Source of the DNA: Candidatus Caccousia avistercoris
Lineage (GTDB): Bacteria; Bacillota; Clostridia; Oscillospirales; Acutalibacteraceae
Direction: 5' to 3'
Assembly (NCBI GenBank): GCA_018715025.1
Contig: DVMK01000036.1
Span: forward strand, 1-33,253
Length of the DNA: 33,253 nucleotides
Shown one piece after another: positions 1,437-13,357 of this stretch. Position 1 is the first letter of the stretch; each line of letters begins with the position of its first letter. Position numbers and translations under genes: made by a program. The notes under the pieces were generated by a model. The model was given only the letters and a program-made list of their open reading frames with translations, ran no database searches and was not told the origin of the DNA.

Positions 1437-1480
1437 CAAAAAAAATTTTGCAGATTATTTGAATAAATTATACAAATAAT
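1437..1480 (-). terminator. Possible AT-rich terminator of the TetM-like gene
   Basis: On the minus strand an AT-only 8-base stem (ATTATTTG, 1480-1473, with CAAATAAT, 1461-1454) overlaps the stop codon of the GTPase gene and is followed by an eight-T run near 1442-1449. The stem is weak and lacks the GC-rich base of the other terminators here, so the call is tentative. Confidence 0.35.
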
Positions 1481-3492
1481 TCCTGGGAAATCCGCCCTTC
1501 CGCCGCTTTTCTCCAGTCGCAGTGCATGTGGGAGGCCGCCTCCTGCCATGGGACGAAATACCCCGCCCCATGGGAGCAGAACACCGAGCCCGCCGGGTTT
1601 TCTGTGTCTGCCTCGGGCCGGTAGGGGGAAGCGGCCAGCACCTCCGCTTCGTTGTGGCAGGGCTCGCAGCCGTCAAAGCGGAGGGAGAGGGCGCCGCGGC
1701 CCCTGGTGAAGGCGGTCAGCTCCTTCTGGTAGGGGAGGAAGGCGGCGGCGGGGGCCCGGCCCGTTACCACCGCCGCGCCCCCCTCCTGCAGGGGCGGCTC
1801 CGCCGTGCCGCACAGCCGCTGTACGTCGGCCAGAACCCGGCCGGCGTACTCCTGGGGAACGGAAATCCGGAAAGCGCACCAGGGCTCCAGCAAAAGGCAG
1901 TCCGCCTGCATGAGCCCCTGGCGAAGGGCCCGGTACACCGCTTCGCGAAAATCGCCCCCCTCGGTGTGTTTCAGGTGGGCCCGGCCGGTGAGCAGGGCCA
2001 CGTGCAGGTCGGTGACAGGCGCGCCGGTGAGCACCCCTGCAATGGGCCGCTCAAACACGTGGGTGCGGATGAGGTTCTGCCAGTTTTTGTCCAGCACATC
2101 CAGCGGGCACAGGCTTTCAAAGGTGATGCCGCTGCCCCGCGGGCCGGGGGAGAGCAGAAAGTGAACCTCCGCGTAATGGCGCAGGGGCTCGAAGTGGCCG
2201 CAGGCGTGCACCGTATTCCGGATCGTCTCCTGGTACATGACCCGGCACTCCCCAAAGGTCACCTCCAGCTGAAACCGCTCCCGCAGGATTTCCTGCAGGA
2301 TTTCCAGCTGCACCTCCCCCATTACGTGAACCCGAAGCTCCTGCAGGGCTTCGTTCCATTCCACCGAAAGAGCGGGTTCCTCCTCCTCCAGGGTGCGGAA
2401 GGCGGCCAGCACCGGGCGGGGATCCTGCGGCCCCGCCCACTGCACCCGGGAGAGCAGCATGGGGGCAAGCTCCCACCCGGTGCGGAAGCGCCTGGCCCCC
2501 AGGCCCTCGCCGGGCCGCAGGCCGGAAAATCCGGCGGCGCAGCACAGCTCACCGGCGCGCACCTGCTGCACCGGGATCCGTTTTTCCCCCTGGCACCGGT
2601 ACAGGGCCGTCACCTTTTCCTTCTGGACGGAGCCGTCCGCCGCCAGGGTGTCCGCCTCCTCCCGGCAGGCGAGGGTTCCCGCCGTCACCTTCAGGTAGGT
2701 CAGGCGGGCGTCGGCCCGGCGCACCTTGTAGGCCACGGCGGAAAAGGGCTCTTTCTCCTTTTCTTCATAGCCGGTTTCCGTCAGCCAATCCATGGCCCGC
2801 AGGAATTCCTCCACCCCCAGGCCCTGCAGGGCGGAGCCGGAAAAACAGGGGAACAGTTTTCGCTGCCGCACCAGGCGGCGCAGGGCGGGCTGCCATTCCT
2901 CCTGGGGAACGCCCCCTTCCAGGTACTGTTCCAGCAGGGCGTCGTCCAGGGCCGCCAGCTCCTCTGCCAGGGGCTCCTCCACCTGCCCGGCAAAGCCGTC
3001 CATTGGCAGGACGGCGGGGCTGCACTTCCTCCGCAGCTCCTCCAGGGCGCGCTCCACGCTGGCCCCCGGGCGGTCTGTCTTGTTCAGGAACAGGAACGCC
3101 GGCAGCCGGTAGTGGGCCAGCAGCCGCCACAGGGTTTCTGTGTGGGCCTGCACCCCCTCGGCGCAGCTGACCACCAGCACGGCGTAGTCCAGCACCTGCA
3201 GGGCCCGCTCCATTTCCGGGGCGAAGTCGGTGTGGCCGGGGGTGTCCAGCAAAAACCAGCGGGTCCCCCCGTAAGAAAATTCCGCCTGGCCGGAAAACAC
3301 GGTGATTCCCCGCTCCCGTTCCACCGGCTCCGCATCCAGGAAGGCGTCGCCGTGGTCCACCCGGCCCCGGCTGCGCAGGGCGCCGCCCAGGTACAGAAGC
3401 TGCTCTGAAAGGGTGGTTTTCCCCGCGTCCACATGGGCCAGCACGCCCAGCGTCACCCGCTTGCCCGGCTGCGCCGCCGCTCCTTTCTCCAT
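1468..3492 (-). CDS. TetM/EF-G-like translational GTPase (ribosomal protection protein family)
   Basis: A 674-residue GTPase of the TetM/TetO/EF-G superfamily, which acts on the ribosome. Visible motifs are the P-loop AHVDAGKTT (19-27), switch I RGIT (61-64), DTPGH (83-87) and NKTD (137-140), followed by EF-G-like domains II-V. The very start, with AHVDAGKTTL followed soon by an RGIT element, and the C-terminal YQKELTAFTRGRG resemble tetracycline-resistance ribosomal protection proteins more than canonical EF-G. It extends beyond the roughly 640 residues of TetM, ending in a tail with GSVFCSHGAGYFVPW. The ATG at 3492 was chosen over an upstream in-frame ATG because GGAAAGGGGG precedes it and the P-loop then falls at the usual distance. 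It is a single gene with its own promoter and no mobile-element context. Whether it gives tetracycline resistance cannot be read from the sequence; it may be a housekeeping ribosome-rescue or remodelling paralogue. Confidence 0.85.
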   Translation of the reverse strand: MEKGAAAQPGKRVTLGVLAHVDAGKTTLSEQLLYLGGALRSRGRVDHGDAFLDAEPVERERGITVFSGQAEFSYGGTRWFLLDTPGHTDFAPEMERALQVLDYAVLVVSCAEGVQAHTETLWRLLAHYRLPAFLFLNKTDRPGASVERALEELRRKCSPAVLPMDGFAGQVEEPLAEELAALDDALLEQYLEGGVPQEEWQPALRRLVRQRKLFPCFSGSALQGLGVEEFLRAMDWLTETGYEEKEKEPFSAVAYKVRRADARLTYLKVTAGTLACREEADTLAADGSVQKEKVTALYRCQGEKRIPVQQVRAGELCCAAGFSGLRPGEGLGARRFRTGWELAPMLLSRVQWAGPQDPRPVLAAFRTLEEEEPALSVEWNEALQELRVHVMGEVQLEILQEILRERFQLEVTFGECRVMYQETIRNTVHACGHFEPLRHYAEVHFLLSPGPRGSGITFESLCPLDVLDKNWQNLIRTHVFERPIAGVLTGAPVTDLHVALLTGRAHLKHTEGGDFREAVYRALRQGLMQADCLLLEPWCAFRISVPQEYAGRVLADVQRLCGTAEPPLQEGGAAVVTGRAPAAAFLPYQKELTAFTRGRGALSLRFDGCEPCHNEAEVLAASPYRPEADTENPAGSVFCSHGAGYFVPWQEAASHMHCDWRKAAEGRISQELFV

Positions 3493-3520
3493 AAAAAATC
3501 CCCCTTTCCGCAATATGCCT

Positions 3521-3549
3521 ATCATACCACAGAAAAGGGGGAGCGTCGA
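3521..3549 (-). promoter_or_regulatory. Promoter of the TetM-like gene
   Basis: On the minus strand, TCGACG (3549-3544), a 17-base spacer and TATGAT (3526-3521) precede the start codon. The predicted leader is only about 20 bases. That is too short for the leader-peptide attenuator found in front of classical tet(M). Confidence 0.5.
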
Positions 3550-3631
3550 TAGGGGGGAGGGAAAAGGGAGGGATGGGAAAGTGCTTGCAGGGGAAATCTG
3601 CCTTCTTGAACCAAGATTATGGAGACAGCAC

Positions 3632-3691
3632 AAAAAGAGCCCTGAGCTGGAATATTTGGATCGGTTCACGCCAGCGGTGGGCTCATTTTTT
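3632..3691. terminator. Terminator downstream of the arabinofuranosidase/DUF6171 pair
   Basis: A two-part stem, GAGCCC (3637-3642) with GGGCTC (3679-3684) and inside it GCTGG (3646-3650) with CCAGC (3671-3675), has A5 on its left (T5 on the minus strand) and T6 on its right. It could stop transcription from either side but sits where the minus-strand pair ends. The rest of 3550-3711 shows purine-rich sequence and no gene. Confidence 0.5.
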
Positions 3692-7209: not shown

Positions 7210-8403
7210 CTACCAGCTGATCTTGTCCAGAATGCCGGAAAGGTAGGCGATGGCCACGCCGTAGTTGGTCATGGGCACGCCCTGGCGCTTGGCCTGCTCC
7301 ACCCGGGCCAGCACATACTTCCGGTTGAACATGCAGGCCCCGCAGTGGATGATGAGATCATACCCGGAAAGATCCTGGGGGAAGTCGGTACCGCTTACGA
7401 TTTGCACAGAGAGCCCCTCCCCGGCCCGCTTCCGCAGCATGCGGGGGATCTTCTCCCGGCCGATGTCCTCCGTGAGGGGGGCGTGGGTGCAGGCCTCGGC
7501 AATAAGCACGCGGGAATGCTCTGTCAGGCTGCCGATGGCGGCGGCGCTTTCCGCGAAGTAGGCCAGGTCCCCCTTGTACCCGGCGAACAGCACCGAGAAG
7601 GAGGTGAGCAGGGACTGGGGCGGCTTTTTGTCGTACACCTGGCGGAAGATCTGGCTGTCGGTGATGATGAGCTTGGGCGGGGCCGCCAGCGAGGCCAGCG
7701 CCTGCTCCAGGGTGTCGCCGGTACAGCAGGAAACCAGGCATTTTTTGTCCAGAAGCTCCCGGATGGTCTGCACCTGGGGCAGGATGAGCCGCCCCTTGGG
7801 GGCCTGGATGTCCTGGGGCATGACCAGCAGCACCTGGTCGCCGGGGCCGCACAGGGCGCCGGTGATGCTGGGCTGCTCAAAGTCCTCCGGCAAAGCGCGG
7901 ATGAGGGCCTCCCGCAGGGCGGGGATCCCCTCGCCGGTGGCGGCGCTTACCAGCAGGGCCGGCGCGCCGCAGGCCTCCCCGGCCCGGCGGGCCAGGGCCA
8001 GGGCTTCTTCCCTGCCCTCGTCCGCCTTGTTCACCACGGGGATGACGGGGGTTTTCTGCTCCCGGAAGCGGGCCAGCCAGGCCAGCTCCTCCTCCAGGCC
8101 GCCGCCGGAAAACACCAGCAGGGCCACGTCCGTTTTCCGGGCGGCTTCCTCTGTTTTTTCCACCCGCAGGCGGCCCAGCTCGCCCACGTCGTCAAACCCT
8201 GCCGTGTCAATGAACACACAGGGGCCTATGCCGTGAATTTCCATGGCCTTGTACACCGGGTCGGCGGTGGTGCCGGCCACCTGAGAGACCAGGGCCGCCT
8301 GCTGCCCGGTGAGGGCGTTTACCAGCGAGGATTTCCCGCTGTTCCGCTTGCCGAAAATGCCGATGTGCAGCCGGTTGGCCCGGGGGGTGTCTGTCAGGCT
8401 CAT
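7210..8403 (-). CDS. hydF: [FeFe]-hydrogenase H-cluster maturation GTPase HydF
   Basis: HydF is the scaffold GTPase on which the 2Fe subcluster of [FeFe] hydrogenase is assembled before delivery to HydA. The 397-residue protein has a Ras-like GTPase domain with GKRNSGKSS (18-26), DTAG (66-69) and NKAD (125-128). A dimerisation domain follows, then a C-terminal [4Fe-4S]-binding domain with CTH (305-307) and HCGAC (C354, C357), the family CxH...CxxC pattern. The ATG at 8403 has AAGGAGG seven bases upstream. It is the last gene of hydE-hydG-hydF, 19 bases after hydG. All diagnostic residues are present and the length is normal. Confidence 0.97.
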   Translation of the reverse strand: MSLTDTPRANRLHIGIFGKRNSGKSSLVNALTGQQAALVSQVAGTTADPVYKAMEIHGIGPCVFIDTAGFDDVGELGRLRVEKTEEAARKTDVALLVFSGGGLEEELAWLARFREQKTPVIPVVNKADEGREEALALARRAGEACGAPALLVSAATGEGIPALREALIRALPEDFEQPSITGALCGPGDQVLLVMPQDIQAPKGRLILPQVQTIRELLDKKCLVSCCTGDTLEQALASLAAPPKLIITDSQIFRQVYDKKPPQSLLTSFSVLFAGYKGDLAYFAESAAAIGSLTEHSRVLIAEACTHAPLTEDIGREKIPRMLRKRAGEGLSVQIVSGTDFPQDLSGYDLIIHCGACMFNRKYVLARVEQAKRQGVPMTNYGVAIAYLSGILDKISW

Positions 8404-8422: not shown

Positions 8423-9844
8423 TCAGAACCGGAAGTCCCGGCGCCCGCCGTGGATGTCGCTGATGTGCTCCTCCGCGATGCGGCGCACCTTCTCGTTGGG
8501 AATCTTTTTCAGTTCCTCCCGGATCACCTGCTCCCCAATCTCCCTGGTGGCGGGGGAGGCGTAGTCCTCCAAATACTCCTTCAGCGTCATCAGCGCGTTG
8601 GGCTGGCAGCAGTTTACAATCTGCCCGGATTTCAGCAGGGACATGAACCGGTCGCCGGTGCGGCCCTCCCGGTAGCAGGCGGTGCAGAAGCTGGGAATGT
8701 AGCCCAGCCGCAGCAGCCAGTCCACCACCTGGTCCAGGGTGCGGTTGTCGCTCACGTCAAACTGGCAGGAGTTCTCGTCCTCCGGCTCCGGTTCCTCATA
8801 GCCGCCCACGCTGGTGCGGGAACCGCCGCCAATTTGGGAAACGCCCAGCTGAAGCACCCGCTCCCGGCTCTTTTTCGACTCCCGGGCCGAGATGATCATG
8901 CCGGTGTAGGGCACGGCCAGCCGGATGAGCGCCACAATCTTGGCGAACATATCGTCCGAGATGGAGTTGGCGAAATCCTCCGGGTTGATGTCGTCCGCCG
9001 GGCGGATGCGGGGCACGCTGATGGTGTGGGGCCCCACCCCGTGTACGGCCTCCAGATGCTCCGCATGCATCAGCAGGCCCACAAAGTCGTAGCGGTACAG
9101 GTCAAGGCCGAACAGCACGCCGATGCCCACGTCGTCTATGCCGCCCTCCATGGCCCGGTCCATCGCCTCTGTGTGGTAGGCGTAGTTGTGCTTGGGGCCT
9201 GTGGGGTGCAGCTTTTCGTAATTTTCCTTATGGTACGTTTCCTGGAACAGGATGTAGGTGCCGATCTCCGCTTCCTTCAGCTTCCGGTAATTTTCCACCG
9301 TGGTGGCGGCGATGTTCACATTCACCCGGCGGATGGCCCCGTTCTTGTGCTTAATGCTGTAAATGGTGCGGATGCTTTCCAGTACGTATTCAATGGGGCA
9401 ATTCTGGGGGTCCTCGCCGGTTTCCAGGGCCAGGCGCTTGTGGCCCATGTCCTGCAGGGCGATGACCTCCCGGCGGATCTCCTCCTGGGTGAGCTTCTTC
9501 CTGGTAATGGTCTTGTTCTGGTGGTGGTAGGGGCAGTAGACGCAGCCGTTCACGCAGTAATTGGAAAGATACAGGGGCGCCACCAGCACAATCCGCCTGC
9601 CGTAAAACCGTTCCTTGATTTGGATGGCCAGCTCTTCCACCCGCCGGTTCACATCCTCCAGCTCGCAGTCCAGCAAAACGGCGGCTTCCCGGTGGGTAAG
9701 GCCCTTGCACTGGGCCGCTTTTTCCAGAATCCCCTCAATCAGGGGGCGGTTTGCCTTATTCTGTTCCGCGTAGGCCAGCGTTTCCTGGATTTCCCCGTCG
9801 TTGATGAATTCCTCTGCCTGCAGGGATTTGGGATCGTATTTCAT
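8423..9844 (-). CDS. hydG: [FeFe]-hydrogenase maturase HydG (radical SAM tyrosine lyase)
   Basis: HydG cleaves tyrosine to p-cresol and dehydroglycine and turns the latter into the CO and CN- ligands of the H-cluster, delivered as an Fe(CO)2(CN) synthon. The 473-residue protein has the radical-SAM cluster motif CVNGCVYC (C97, C101, C104). It also has the second, C-terminal cluster motif CX2CX22C (C387, C390, C413), which separates HydG from the related thiamine enzyme ThiH. The start at 9844 lies three bases after the hydE stop with only a weak upstream AAGAA/GAG element, so translation is probably coupled to hydE. Full length with all cluster ligands. Confidence 0.97.
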   Translation of the reverse strand: MKYDPKSLQAEEFINDGEIQETLAYAEQNKANRPLIEGILEKAAQCKGLTHREAAVLLDCELEDVNRRVEELAIQIKERFYGRRIVLVAPLYLSNYCVNGCVYCPYHHQNKTITRKKLTQEEIRREVIALQDMGHKRLALETGEDPQNCPIEYVLESIRTIYSIKHKNGAIRRVNVNIAATTVENYRKLKEAEIGTYILFQETYHKENYEKLHPTGPKHNYAYHTEAMDRAMEGGIDDVGIGVLFGLDLYRYDFVGLLMHAEHLEAVHGVGPHTISVPRIRPADDINPEDFANSISDDMFAKIVALIRLAVPYTGMIISARESKKSRERVLQLGVSQIGGGSRTSVGGYEEPEPEDENSCQFDVSDNRTLDQVVDWLLRLGYIPSFCTACYREGRTGDRFMSLLKSGQIVNCCQPNALMTLKEYLEDYASPATREIGEQVIREELKKIPNEKVRRIAEEHISDIHGGRRDFRF

Positions 9845-9847
9845 AGC

Positions 9848-10969
9848 TCATTCTTCTTTCTGCGCTCTCTGCGCCAGTGAATTTCCTCCCGGGCAAGGCC
9901 CGGCGGGGCGGTAGTCCCCGCGCTCCGCCGGAAGCGTGAAGCCGATGGCCGCCATGCGCCGTTCCAGGGCGGCGCGGCCCTCGGCCGCCTCCTCGTCCAT
10001 ACAGATTTTGTTGTCGTACAGGGTATACTTCCGCCGCACCCCCACCGGCGAAAGGTTGGGCATGACCACATTGGCCCCGCTGAGCACCCCCTGCTCCCGG
10101 CCGTTTTCCAGCAGGGTGCCCAGGGCGGTGGTGGCCGGGATGAGGGCGTCCGGCAGCATGAGCCGCAGCAGGGCCACAAGGAAGAGCGTCTGCTCTGCCG
10201 AGCCCGCGGGCTCCGCCCCCAGAGGCGTGTCCCTGTGGGGTACGAAGGGGCCGATGCCCACCATGGCCGGGGAAAGCTCCCGAATGAAGCAAAGGTCCTG
10301 GGCCAGACAGTCTGCCGTCTGGCCCGGCGAGCCCACCATGAAGCCGGTGCCCACCTGGTAGCCGATCTCTTTCAGGTCCCACAGGCAGCGCTTCCGGTTT
10401 TCCAGGCTCAGCTCCGGCGGGTGCAGGCGGCGGTAATGGGCCGGGTCTGCCGTTTCGTGCCGCAGCAGGTACCGGTCGGCCCCCGCGTCAAACAGCGCCT
10501 GGTACGAGGCCCGGCTCCGTTCCCCCACCGAAAGGGTCACGGCGCAGCCGGGCCAGCGGGCTTTGATTTCCCCCACCAGGGCGCAGAGCCTTTCGTCGGT
10601 GAAGTACGGGTCCTCGCCCCCCTGCAGCACAAAGGTGCGGAACCCCAGCCCGTACCCGGCCTGGCAGCAGGCCAGAATCTCCTCCTGTGTAAGGCGGTAC
10701 CGCTCCGCCCGCCGGTTGCCCCGGCGGATGCCGCAGTACAGGCAGTCGTTTTTACAGTAATTGGTAAATTCGATCAGGCCCCTGGTGTACACCCGGCTTC
10801 CAAACCGGGCCCGGGCGGCCGCCCCGGCCCGCTCCCGGGCGAAGGCCATGTCCTCTGCGGCGGCATGCTCCAGCAAAAACCGCCATTCCCTCCTGGCAAG
10901 GCGGCGGTCCCGCTCCAGCTTTTCCAGCAGGGCGCGGGGGGAGGCGCCGCCCCTTTCCCAGTGCTCCAT
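9848..10969 (-). CDS. hydE: [FeFe]-hydrogenase maturase HydE (radical SAM)
   Basis: HydE is the third H-cluster maturase, a radical-SAM enzyme that processes the organometallic HydG product on the way to the 2Fe subcluster. The 373-residue protein has the cluster motif CKNDCLYCG (C72, C76, C79) and a BioB-like barrel with LQGGEDPYF and FMVGSPGQT. The ATG at 10969 has GGAGG seven bases upstream. It is the first gene of the operon and has a clear promoter about 90 bases upstream. In many Clostridia and Thermotoga a small TM1266-type regulator or hydA lies beside these genes; neither is seen here. Confidence 0.96.
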   Translation of the reverse strand: MEHWERGGASPRALLEKLERDRRLARREWRFLLEHAAAEDMAFARERAGAAARARFGSRVYTRGLIEFTNYCKNDCLYCGIRRGNRRAERYRLTQEEILACCQAGYGLGFRTFVLQGGEDPYFTDERLCALVGEIKARWPGCAVTLSVGERSRASYQALFDAGADRYLLRHETADPAHYRRLHPPELSLENRKRCLWDLKEIGYQVGTGFMVGSPGQTADCLAQDLCFIRELSPAMVGIGPFVPHRDTPLGAEPAGSAEQTLFLVALLRLMLPDALIPATTALGTLLENGREQGVLSGANVVMPNLSPVGVRRKYTLYDNKICMDEEAAEGRAALERRMAAIGFTLPAERGDYRPAGPCPGGNSLAQRAQKEE

Positions 10970-11032
10970 TTCCTTTCCTCCGGTGCAAGGCGTCCGCAGC
11001 GCGGCCTTCGTCAGAATCCGCAGCCGTTTTCG

Positions 11033-11052
11033 CCGTAATCTGTCTATTACGG
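11033..11052. promoter_or_regulatory. Palindromic operator candidate at the hydE transcription start
   Basis: A perfect inverted repeat with arms CCGTAAT (11033-11039) and ATTACGG (11046-11052) and a 6-base centre lies just downstream of the hydE -10 box, overlapping the predicted start site. It could be a repressor site or the base of a short RNA hairpin. It does not match the Rex or FNR consensus as I know them. Confidence 0.5.
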
Positions 11053-11058
11053 TACACT

Positions 11059-11087
11059 ATTATACTACAACTTCTCAGAAAACACAA
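11059..11087 (-). promoter_or_regulatory. Promoter of the hydEGF operon
   Basis: On the minus strand, TTGTGT (11087-11082), a 17-base spacer and a consensus TATAAT (11064-11059) form a strong sigma-A promoter. The predicted start is near 11052, giving a leader of about 80 bases before hydE. Confidence 0.75.
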
Positions 11088-11116
11088 GAAACTCGACCGG
11101 CGCCGGGCCGGGCGGG

Positions 11117-11145
11117 TAGACGGAGGGCGAAACTTCTGGTATACT
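11117..11145 (+). promoter_or_regulatory. Promoter of the TtcA-like gene
   Basis: TAGACG (11117-11122), a 17-base spacer and TATACT (11140-11145) with an extended -10 TG at 11137-11138. It diverges from the hydE promoter; the two -35 boxes are 29 bases apart. Confidence 0.6.
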
Positions 11146-11176
11146 GGGGAAAAACGCCGTGGGGAGGAATGGAAGG

Positions 11177-12061
11177 ATGGAACAGGGGGAACGCTGCCTC
11201 CAGGCGGAGCGGAGCATCCAGAAAAAATACCGGAAAAGTATTTGGAATAAATTTGTGGGCGGACTGAAGGATTACGAGATGATCCAGGAGGGGGACCGGA
11301 TTGCCGTGTGCATCTCCGGCGGCAAGGATTCCATGCTGCTGGCCAAGTGCATGCAGCTGCTGCAGCGGTACAGCCCCACCCGGTTTCAGCTGACATATTT
11401 GGTGATGGACCCGGGCTACAGCCCGGAAAACAGGGCGAGGATTGAGGAGAACGCCGCCCTGCTGGGCCTGCCGGTGACGGTGGAGGAGACGAACCTGTTC
11501 CAGGCCGCCGAGGCGGCGGAAAAATCCCCCTGCTACCTGTGCGCCCGCATGCGGCGGGGCTGCCTGTACCGCCTGGCCCGGGAGCACGGCTGCAACAAGA
11601 TCGCCCTGGGCCACCACCTGGACGACGTGGTGGAAACCGTGCTGCTCAGCATGTTCTACGGTGCCGAAATGAAAACCATGATGCCCAAGCTGCACAGCAG
11701 CCACTTCCCCGGCATGGAGCTCATCCGCCCCCTGTACCTGGTGAAGGAGGCGGACATTGTGGCCTGGGCCAGGTACAACGGGCTGGAGTTCATCCGCTGC
11801 GCCTGCCGCCTGACGGCCGGCACGGCCGAGGGGGTGCTGGACTCGAAGCGGCAGGAGATGAAAGCCCTTCTGGCAGAGCTGCGGAAGCGGAACCCCAGCG
11901 TGGACTGGAACATTTTCCACAGCTTCCACAACGTAAACCTGGGCACCCTGGTGGGCTACACCACCGGCCGGGAGGATTTCCCCTTCCTGGCAGAGTACAG
12001 CCGGCCCGGTTCCCCCTACTGTTCCCTGGGGGAGGAGGCGTCTTTTTCCGGGGAAAATTGA
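11177..12061 (+). CDS. PP-loop ATPase, TtcA family (probable tRNA 2-thiolation enzyme)
   Basis: TtcA-type enzymes adenylate a tRNA cytidine and replace its oxygen with sulfur (s2C32), using an oxygen-sensitive Fe-S cluster. The 294-residue protein has the PP-loop SGGKDS (47-52), the CYLC pair (C119, C122), and C208/C210 in RCACR as candidates for the third cluster ligand. GHHLDDVVETVL (145-156) is typical of the TtcA/TilS/CTU1 superfamily. The ATG at 11177 has GGGGAGG nine bases upstream; the GTG at 11159 in the same frame has no such site. It is transcribed divergently from hydE, alone. TtcA itself is mostly proteobacterial, so the exact substrate in this clostridial subgroup is uncertain. 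TilS is unlikely because the TilS C-terminal domains are absent. Confidence 0.8.
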   Translation: MEQGERCLQAERSIQKKYRKSIWNKFVGGLKDYEMIQEGDRIAVCISGGKDSMLLAKCMQLLQRYSPTRFQLTYLVMDPGYSPENRARIEENAALLGLPVTVEETNLFQAAEAAEKSPCYLCARMRRGCLYRLAREHGCNKIALGHHLDDVVETVLLSMFYGAEMKTMMPKLHSSHFPGMELIRPLYLVKEADIVAWARYNGLEFIRCACRLTAGTAEGVLDSKRQEMKALLAELRKRNPSVDWNIFHSFHNVNLGTLVGYTTGREDFPFLAEYSRPGSPYCSLGEEASFSGEN

Positions 12062-12184: not shown

Positions 12185-13357
12185 ATGAGCAGTCAGTTTG
12201 ACGAAATTATCGACCGCAGGCACACGTTCAGTGAAAAGTACGACGATTACGAGAGCTTCGGCAAGCCCCAGGACGCCATGCCCCTCTGGGTGGCGGATAT
12301 GGACTTCCGCTCTCCCCCTTCGGTGCGGGAGGCCCTGCAGCAGCTGGTGCAGCGGGGGGTGTTCGGCTACAGCCGGGTGGATGAAACCTACTTCGCGCCG
12401 ATTCAGGACTGGTACCGCACCCGCTTCGGCTGGGAGCCCCAGTACCAGTGGCTGGTGTGCACCCCCGGGGTGGTGTACGGGTTTTCCGCCGCCCTGCAGG
12501 CCCTGACGGAGGAGGGCGACGGGGTCATGATTCAGGAGCCGGTGTACCCGCCCTTCCGGGGAGCGGTGCAGGCCAACGGCCGCCGGGTGGTGAACAGCCC
12601 CCTGCGGGAGGAAAACGGCCGGTACCAGATGGAGCCCCCGGAGGAGATGGAGCGGCGCATGGTGGAAAACCATGTGAAGGCCTTCCTGCTGTGCAGCCCC
12701 CACAACCCGGTGGGCCGGGTGTGGACCCGGGAAGAGCTGCTCACCATAGGCCGGCTGTGCCAGAAGCACGGGATCTACGTGATCTGCGATGAAATCCACG
12801 GGGATTTTGTGTTCCCGGGCCATAAGCACCATGTGTTTGCCTCCCTGGATCCCCAGTTCGCCTCCTTCACCGTCACCTGCACGGCCCCCAGCAAGACCTT
12901 TAACCTGGCGGGGCTGCAGACCTCGAACCTGTTCGTTCCCAACCCGGAAATCCGGGAAAGGCTTCGCCGTGTGCTGGGCCGCCTGCACTACGAGCAGCCC
13001 AACCTGGCCGGCCTGACGGCCTGCATGGCGGCTTACCAGGGCGGCGCGCCCTGGCTGGAGGAGCTGCTTCTCTACCTGCAGGGGAACGTGGCCTTCACCC
13101 GGGACTTCCTGCGGGAAAACCTGCCTCAACTCCGCTTCCCTGAGCCGGAGGGCACCTACCTGCTGTGGATGGACTTCCGCGCCCTGGGTATGGAGGAAAA
13201 GGAGCTGGACCACTTCCTCACCCACAAGGCCAAGCTGTGGCTGAACATGGGCGGTTCCTTCGGCGAGGCGGGCCGCGGCTTCGCCCGCATGAACATCGGC
13301 TGCCCCCGGTCTGTGCTGGAAAAGGCCCTGCGGCAGCTGAAGGACGCCATTGGGTAA
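12185..13357 (+). CDS. MalY/PatB-type PLP-dependent C-S lyase (cystathionine beta-lyase-like aminotransferase fold)
   Basis: MalY/PatB proteins are fold-type I PLP enzymes that cleave cysteine-S-conjugates and cystathionine to pyruvate, ammonia and a thiol. The 390-residue protein shows PLWVADMDF (33-41), SPHNPVG (N174), CDEIH (D202) and the Schiff-base lysine in APSKTFNLAGL (K237). A C-terminal small domain ends with an RMNIGCPRS arginine motif for carboxylate binding. The ATG at 12185 has GAGGGAGG seven bases upstream, a better fit than the ATG at 12140. It may share transcription with the TtcA-like gene, whose stop is 123 bases upstream; that gap holds a GGTACC-cttat-GGTACC hairpin (12079-12095) without a T-run. 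Cysteine desulfuration would suit a sulfur-transfer neighbour, but that link is inference. Confidence 0.88.
   Translation: MSSQFDEIIDRRHTFSEKYDDYESFGKPQDAMPLWVADMDFRSPPSVREALQQLVQRGVFGYSRVDETYFAPIQDWYRTRFGWEPQYQWLVCTPGVVYGFSAALQALTEEGDGVMIQEPVYPPFRGAVQANGRRVVNSPLREENGRYQMEPPEEMERRMVENHVKAFLLCSPHNPVGRVWTREELLTIGRLCQKHGIYVICDEIHGDFVFPGHKHHVFASLDPQFASFTVTCTAPSKTFNLAGLQTSNLFVPNPEIRERLRRVLGRLHYEQPNLAGLTACMAAYQGGAPWLEELLLYLQGNVAFTRDFLRENLPQLRFPEPEGTYLLWMDFRALGMEEKELDHFLTHKAKLWLNMGGSFGEAGRGFARMNIGCPRSVLEKALRQLKDAIG

Follow-up and report, generated by a model that had tools for sequence, protein, structure and literature searches.

We analyzed a 33,253-nt stretch of DNA from Candidatus Caccousia avistercoris (contig DVMK01000036.1), hereafter the window. 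The [FeFe]-hydrogenase maturation genes hydE, hydG, and hydF were convincingly identified on its minus strand (Table 1), where they form one block divergent from a TtcA-like PP-loop ATPase gene (ttcA). The genome encodes HydE, HydG, HydF, [FeFe]-hydrogenase genes, and a Rex-type protein. TM1266 was not found in this genome, whose assembly is 85% complete. The TtcA-like gene adjoins hydE in the window and hydF in the other four genus genomes (L141-L144), and this persistent neighborhood may tie the ATPase to hydrogenase maturation. Elsewhere in the window (1468-3669, minus strand) lies an elongation-factor-G-like gene whose top score is to the tetracycline ribosomal protection family, below the curated cut-off.

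Upstream of hydE lies the 20-mer CCGTAATCTGTCTATTACGG, whose 7-bp arms match perfectly across a 6-base spacer; the perfect palindrome described in an earlier note on this DNA is borne out in the sequence. On the minus strand the order of elements is TTGTGT-N17-TATAAT-AGTGT-A-CCGTAAT-AGACAG-ATTACGG. A11053 is the first purine at a suitable distance from TATAAT, so the repeat would start 1 nt into the predicted mRNA, in agreement with that note's placement of the palindrome at the hyd operon start. The hydEGF transcription start near A11053 is a prediction from TATAAT. A promoter scan of 10000-12000 returned the ttcA promoter only, and the hydE promoter was missed because of its weak −35 element.

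Table 1. Positions of the features at the hyd locus of the window and of the leader RNA in other loci
Feature	Location	Strand	Basis
hydE, [FeFe]-hydrogenase H-cluster radical SAM maturase	9848-10969	−	TIGR03956, E=2.3e-166
hydG	8423-9844	−	TIGR03955
hydF	7210-8403	−	TIGR03918
Divergent TtcA-like PP-loop ATPase gene (own promoter-like site at 11117-11145)	11159-12061	+	
Perfect inverted repeat CCGTAAT-N6-ATTACGG; 7-bp hairpin with 6-nt loop as hyd RNA	11033-11052	−	
Predicted −10 TATAAT of the hydEGF promoter	11059-11064	−	sequence
Weak −35 TTGTGT, 17-nt spacer, 3/6 matches to TTGACA	11082-11087	−	sequence
Predicted 84-nt hydE 5' UTR, Shine-Dalgarno stretch GGAGGAAAGGAA at its end	10970-11053	−	
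Leader RNA before TM1266/hydE/hydG operons	L005 2919-2957 (−); L042 2051-2090; L095 2058-2096, 2108-2147; L038 2038-2077; L041 2042-2082; L016 1071-1108, 1120-1155; L318-L346 near 1501-1540		
Leader RNA over the hydG ribosome-binding site	L009 2553-2591; L011 2548-2584; L012 1446-1482 (−); L065 3571-3602; L092 3571-3606; L321/L325/L327/L340/L341/L342 near 1501-1540		
Leader RNA before aspartate ammonia-lyase, sulfonate-type ABC transporter, and ECF-type genes	L328 1501-1538 (−); L282 1501-1539; L323 1501-1540 (−); L344 1501-1539 (−); L329 1501-1538; L338 1501-1538 (−)		

Folding, chance expectation, and recurrence of the palindrome

The isolated 5' end of the predicted transcript folds into a single 7-bp hairpin of −7.4 kcal/mol (z about −5), a value equaled by none of 200 shuffles. 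The whole hydE leader is no more stable than its shuffles (z −0.87). When perfect repeats with ≥7-nt arms and 3- to 8-nt loops are counted, the window, with 62% GC, contains 21, compared with 12.0 ± 1.8 in shuffles, and a comparable repeat was present in 6% of the shuffles of the local 201-bp intergenic stretch. The occurrence of the repeat in the window as a whole is not beyond chance. Stems starting at +1 to +4 were found in 0.1% of shuffled UTRs, a post-hoc figure. Of the 89 promoters predicted across 1.14 Mb of this genome, two have a stem of at least 7 bp located 2-7 nt after the −10 element (a 6-nt bin), which is no clear excess over the other bins, and no clear enrichment of 5' hairpins was found at the predicted promoters of this genome and its relatives. 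Another promoter of the same genome (L245, about 12500-12540) carries the dyad TATACCCC..GGGTATA at its predicted start, which we take to resemble a copper-responsive operator.

The palindrome might mark an undescribed hydrogenase regulator, as the earlier note had proposed. The FNR operator consensus is TTGATNNNNATCAA, and the palindrome, written as CCGTAATNNNNNNATTACGG, does not fit it. Nor does it fit the Rex consensus, TTGTGAANNNNTTCACAA as quoted in PMC6391272, and the statement of that note on both regulators was correct. The whole-genome search at up to 2/14 mismatches found no second copy of the palindrome, while the reversed control pattern gave six matches. In 150 family genomes, at up to one mismatch, the palindrome matched 45 places and the reversed control 48, which is no excess, and no hydE locus matched except that of the window. 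The genome's own hydA-type [FeFe]-hydrogenase genes have no such site in their upstream regions, to the extent that the contigs cover these, and no regulator gene adjoins the palindrome. Comparison of hydE upstream regions in 108 relative loci, the footprinting that the note had suggested, gave a best match of 3/14 mismatches, indicating the lack of conservation that the note had named as refuting its proposal; this comparison is weakened by the hyd genes lying elsewhere in the genus. The hydE 5' region is non-syntenic even within the genus, so true footprinting is impossible. Neither a regulon operator nor the note's regulator proposal is supported by these searches.

A leader RNA at the hyd operons of relatives

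In the other four genus genomes, ttcA is followed by hydF, and hydE and hydG, where found, are elsewhere. TM1266 lies directly before hydE or close to it in three of these genomes; in the fourth, neither HydE nor TM1266 was found. Among the 58 genomes examined, TM1266 is present in 31 of the 34 with a clear HydE. The viral contigs gave one distant HydE (43%). The hyd locus of the window adjoins ttcA and is not behind TM1266. As the locus is arranged unlike those of the relatives and the genome has no detected TM1266, its promoter and leader are peculiar to this lineage.

The leaders of TM1266/hydE/hydG operons across Clostridia, for example that of Acetobacterium bakii (L041), contain a recurring covarying RNA hairpin, CUGA-stem-AA-RGG..CCY-GA-stem-AAAGG. 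Its model (R2) has 39 positions. A conserved CUGA opens it, an outer stem of 3-4 bp encloses an inner 3-bp stem (RGG/CCY) whose loop has 4-6 nt, AA and GA separate the two stems on the 5' and 3' sides, and AAAGG closes it. The 11 seed sequences have 22 cells with a change on both sides, versus 6.8 in shuffles, and 39 sequences gave 90 double changes versus 30.6. Beyond the training set, 43 matches in 37 loci showed 111 double changes versus 36.7 in shuffles on the same columns, with sliding controls far lower, in an alignment that was fitted to the model and is hence biased towards it. The leader RNA matched no Rfam family above noise.

The leader RNA often occurs as two copies spaced by about 50 nt, and it usually lies upstream of a terminator-like hairpin. 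Its 3' end, which contains AAGG, can pair with the 5' arm and loop of the terminator, an antiterminator-like complementarity that is better between cognate partners than between swapped ones (permutation p 0.003, 39 leaders). We had also considered the terminator-like hairpins upstream of the relatives' TM1266 as simple terminators of the preceding gene, an idea dropped given the conserved RNA before them. Other copies of the leader RNA overlap the hydG ribosome-binding site, AAAGG included. AAAGG or AAAGAAAGG is the Shine-Dalgarno sequence in these copies, which suggests a translational version of the control.

The leader RNA was found in 15 of the 58 relatives, all 15 of which have TM1266 (p 2e-5), and in 32 of 243 genomes of the class. 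It is followed by TM1266 with hydE, hydG, or hydF, by hydG alone, or by aspartate ammonia-lyase; further genes behind it are an ECF-type membrane protein following TM1266 and SsuC/SsuA-like (sulfonate-type ABC) transporters. The presence of ammonia-lyase, transporter, and ECF-type genes behind it is a hint of either a broader H-cluster regulon or the ligand. A role of ammonia-lyases in assembling the H-cluster bridging ligand has recently been investigated (PMC11736057). The solved structure of TM1266 was deposited as a hypothetical protein (PDB 2NZC), and the family is named only as a putative regulator. A literature search with incomplete coverage found no description for TM1266 or for a hydrogenase maturation riboswitch, and the leader RNA is apparently undescribed so far.

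We favor reading the leader RNA as an attenuator. Expression would be off while a binder, for which TM1266 or a small molecule is the candidate, keeps the hairpin closed and AAAGG out of reach, which lets the terminator form or masks the ribosome site. Otherwise, AAAGG would pair with the terminator arm and expression would be on.

The window gave no match in a normal search with the leader RNA model, and no Rfam family at gathering score; its genome, too, seems to lack the leader RNA. The unfiltered search produced two weak alignments 43 nt apart in the hydE leader: the first, at 6.0 bits, covers the palindrome, and the second, at 6.5 bits, runs from CUGAC as far as the AAAGG of the Shine-Dalgarno sequence. 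The palindrome does not show the CUGA/AAAG flanks, the AA/GA internal loop, and the two covarying stems of the TM1266-associated leader RNA. Neither was assigned to the leader RNA, since CUGA and the AA/GA loop are missing at the palindrome and no inner stem can form beside the AAAGG of the second alignment.

Readings of the palindrome and known systems

Most likely, the palindrome is a lineage-specific 5'-terminal mRNA hairpin, possibly stabilizing and possibly functionless. That it encodes the 5'-terminal stem-loop of the hydEGF mRNA, with the start near A11053, is a tentative preference that falls somewhat short of an even chance. The placement relative to TATAAT, the −7.4 kcal/mol hairpin, and the rarity of such placement in shuffled UTRs (0.1%) argue for it, but the start is predicted only, the −35 is weak, the whole UTR is unremarkable (z −0.87), and the site is without conservation. 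The 21 comparable repeats in the window and the lack of a clear 5' hairpin enrichment at the genome's promoters also speak against it. The same repeat count, where 12 are expected, the 6% of local shuffles, and the absence of conservation or a second copy would suit a chance inverted repeat without function, in which promoter DNA merely happens to hold a 7-bp dyad. This is a substantial possibility; against it stands the precise match with the predicted +1 (post hoc, 0.1%). A dimeric repressor that binds the dyad over +2 to +21 and blocks hydEGF transcription is unlikely. The perfect two-fold symmetry, a position typical of repressor sites, and the likewise placed dyad of the L245 promoter (TATACCC..GGGTATA) would be consistent with such an operator, but there is no other genomic site at up to two mismatches, none upstream of the own hydA-type genes, no excess in the 150 family genomes, no adjoining regulator gene, and no match to Rex or FNR. 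The site is solitary and unconserved, so an mRNA hairpin suits it better than a regulon operator.

It is also very unlikely that the hydE leader is a decayed or rewired descendant of the Clostridia hyd leader RNA, in which the palindrome took the place of the first hairpin, or derives from it, after loss of TM1266. The narrower reading, in which the palindrome itself is the decayed first hairpin of the relatives' TM1266-associated leader RNA, is likewise very unlikely. The unfiltered alignments at 11060-11021 (6.0 bits, E 0.13 for 161 nt) and 11017-10968 (6.5 bits, E 0.096) point in this direction, and their distance of 43 nt recalls the tandem copies of the relatives, about 50 nt apart. However, the normal search of the window was without match and the genome is without detectable TM1266. 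The palindrome also has no conserved CUGA, adjoining AAAG, or AA/GA internal loop, and the AAAGG of the second alignment comes from the Shine-Dalgarno sequence.

For the preferred 5'-terminal hairpin, transcription would begin near A11053, one unpaired nucleotide ahead of the 7-bp stem. The likeliest effect, if any, would be a modest protection of the hydEGF message, since RNA pyrophosphohydrolase and nucleases that depend on the 5' end work inefficiently on an end of this kind. RppH of B. subtilis requires at least two unpaired 5' nucleotides (review PMC3997798). The sequence, its place relative to a good −10 box, its predicted fold, and its absence elsewhere are shown here; the start site, the formation of the hairpin in the cell, and any effect on mRNA life are inferred. 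The earlier note had suggested a hairpin that stabilizes the message; the geometry agrees with this (one unpaired 5' nucleotide and a stable 7-bp stem), and the stabilization remains putative.

The palindrome alone, one unconserved hairpin at one promoter, matters little, and the leader RNA is the more interesting outcome than the palindrome that prompted it. The comparison indicates that a compact leader RNA tied to TM1266 may control hydrogenase maturation genes in many Clostridia, in terminator and ribosome-binding-site versions. If true, the regulation of H-cluster assembly, long an open question, becomes directly testable, and the species of the window would be a natural case of lost leader RNA control.

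Among known systems, the Rex operators upstream of hydG and FeFe-hydrogenase genes in Caldicellulosiruptor bescii (PMC6391272) are likewise symmetric, 18-20 bp long, and upstream of a hydrogenase maturation gene, but the palindrome has another half-site and spacing and is unique in its genome despite the encoded Rex-type protein. For a 5'-terminal stabilizing stem-loop, the class of E. coli ompA and papA and of the B. subtilis aprE leader (PMC3997798), one would expect a stable stem of the transcript 0-4 nt from the real start and a longer mRNA half-life. Here, the stem (−7.4 kcal/mol) comes 1 nt after the start that TATAAT predicts. Although the palindrome differs from these in its short stem (7 bp) and predicted start site, it resembles them in a stem predicted at or near the 5' end with almost no free 5' nucleotides.
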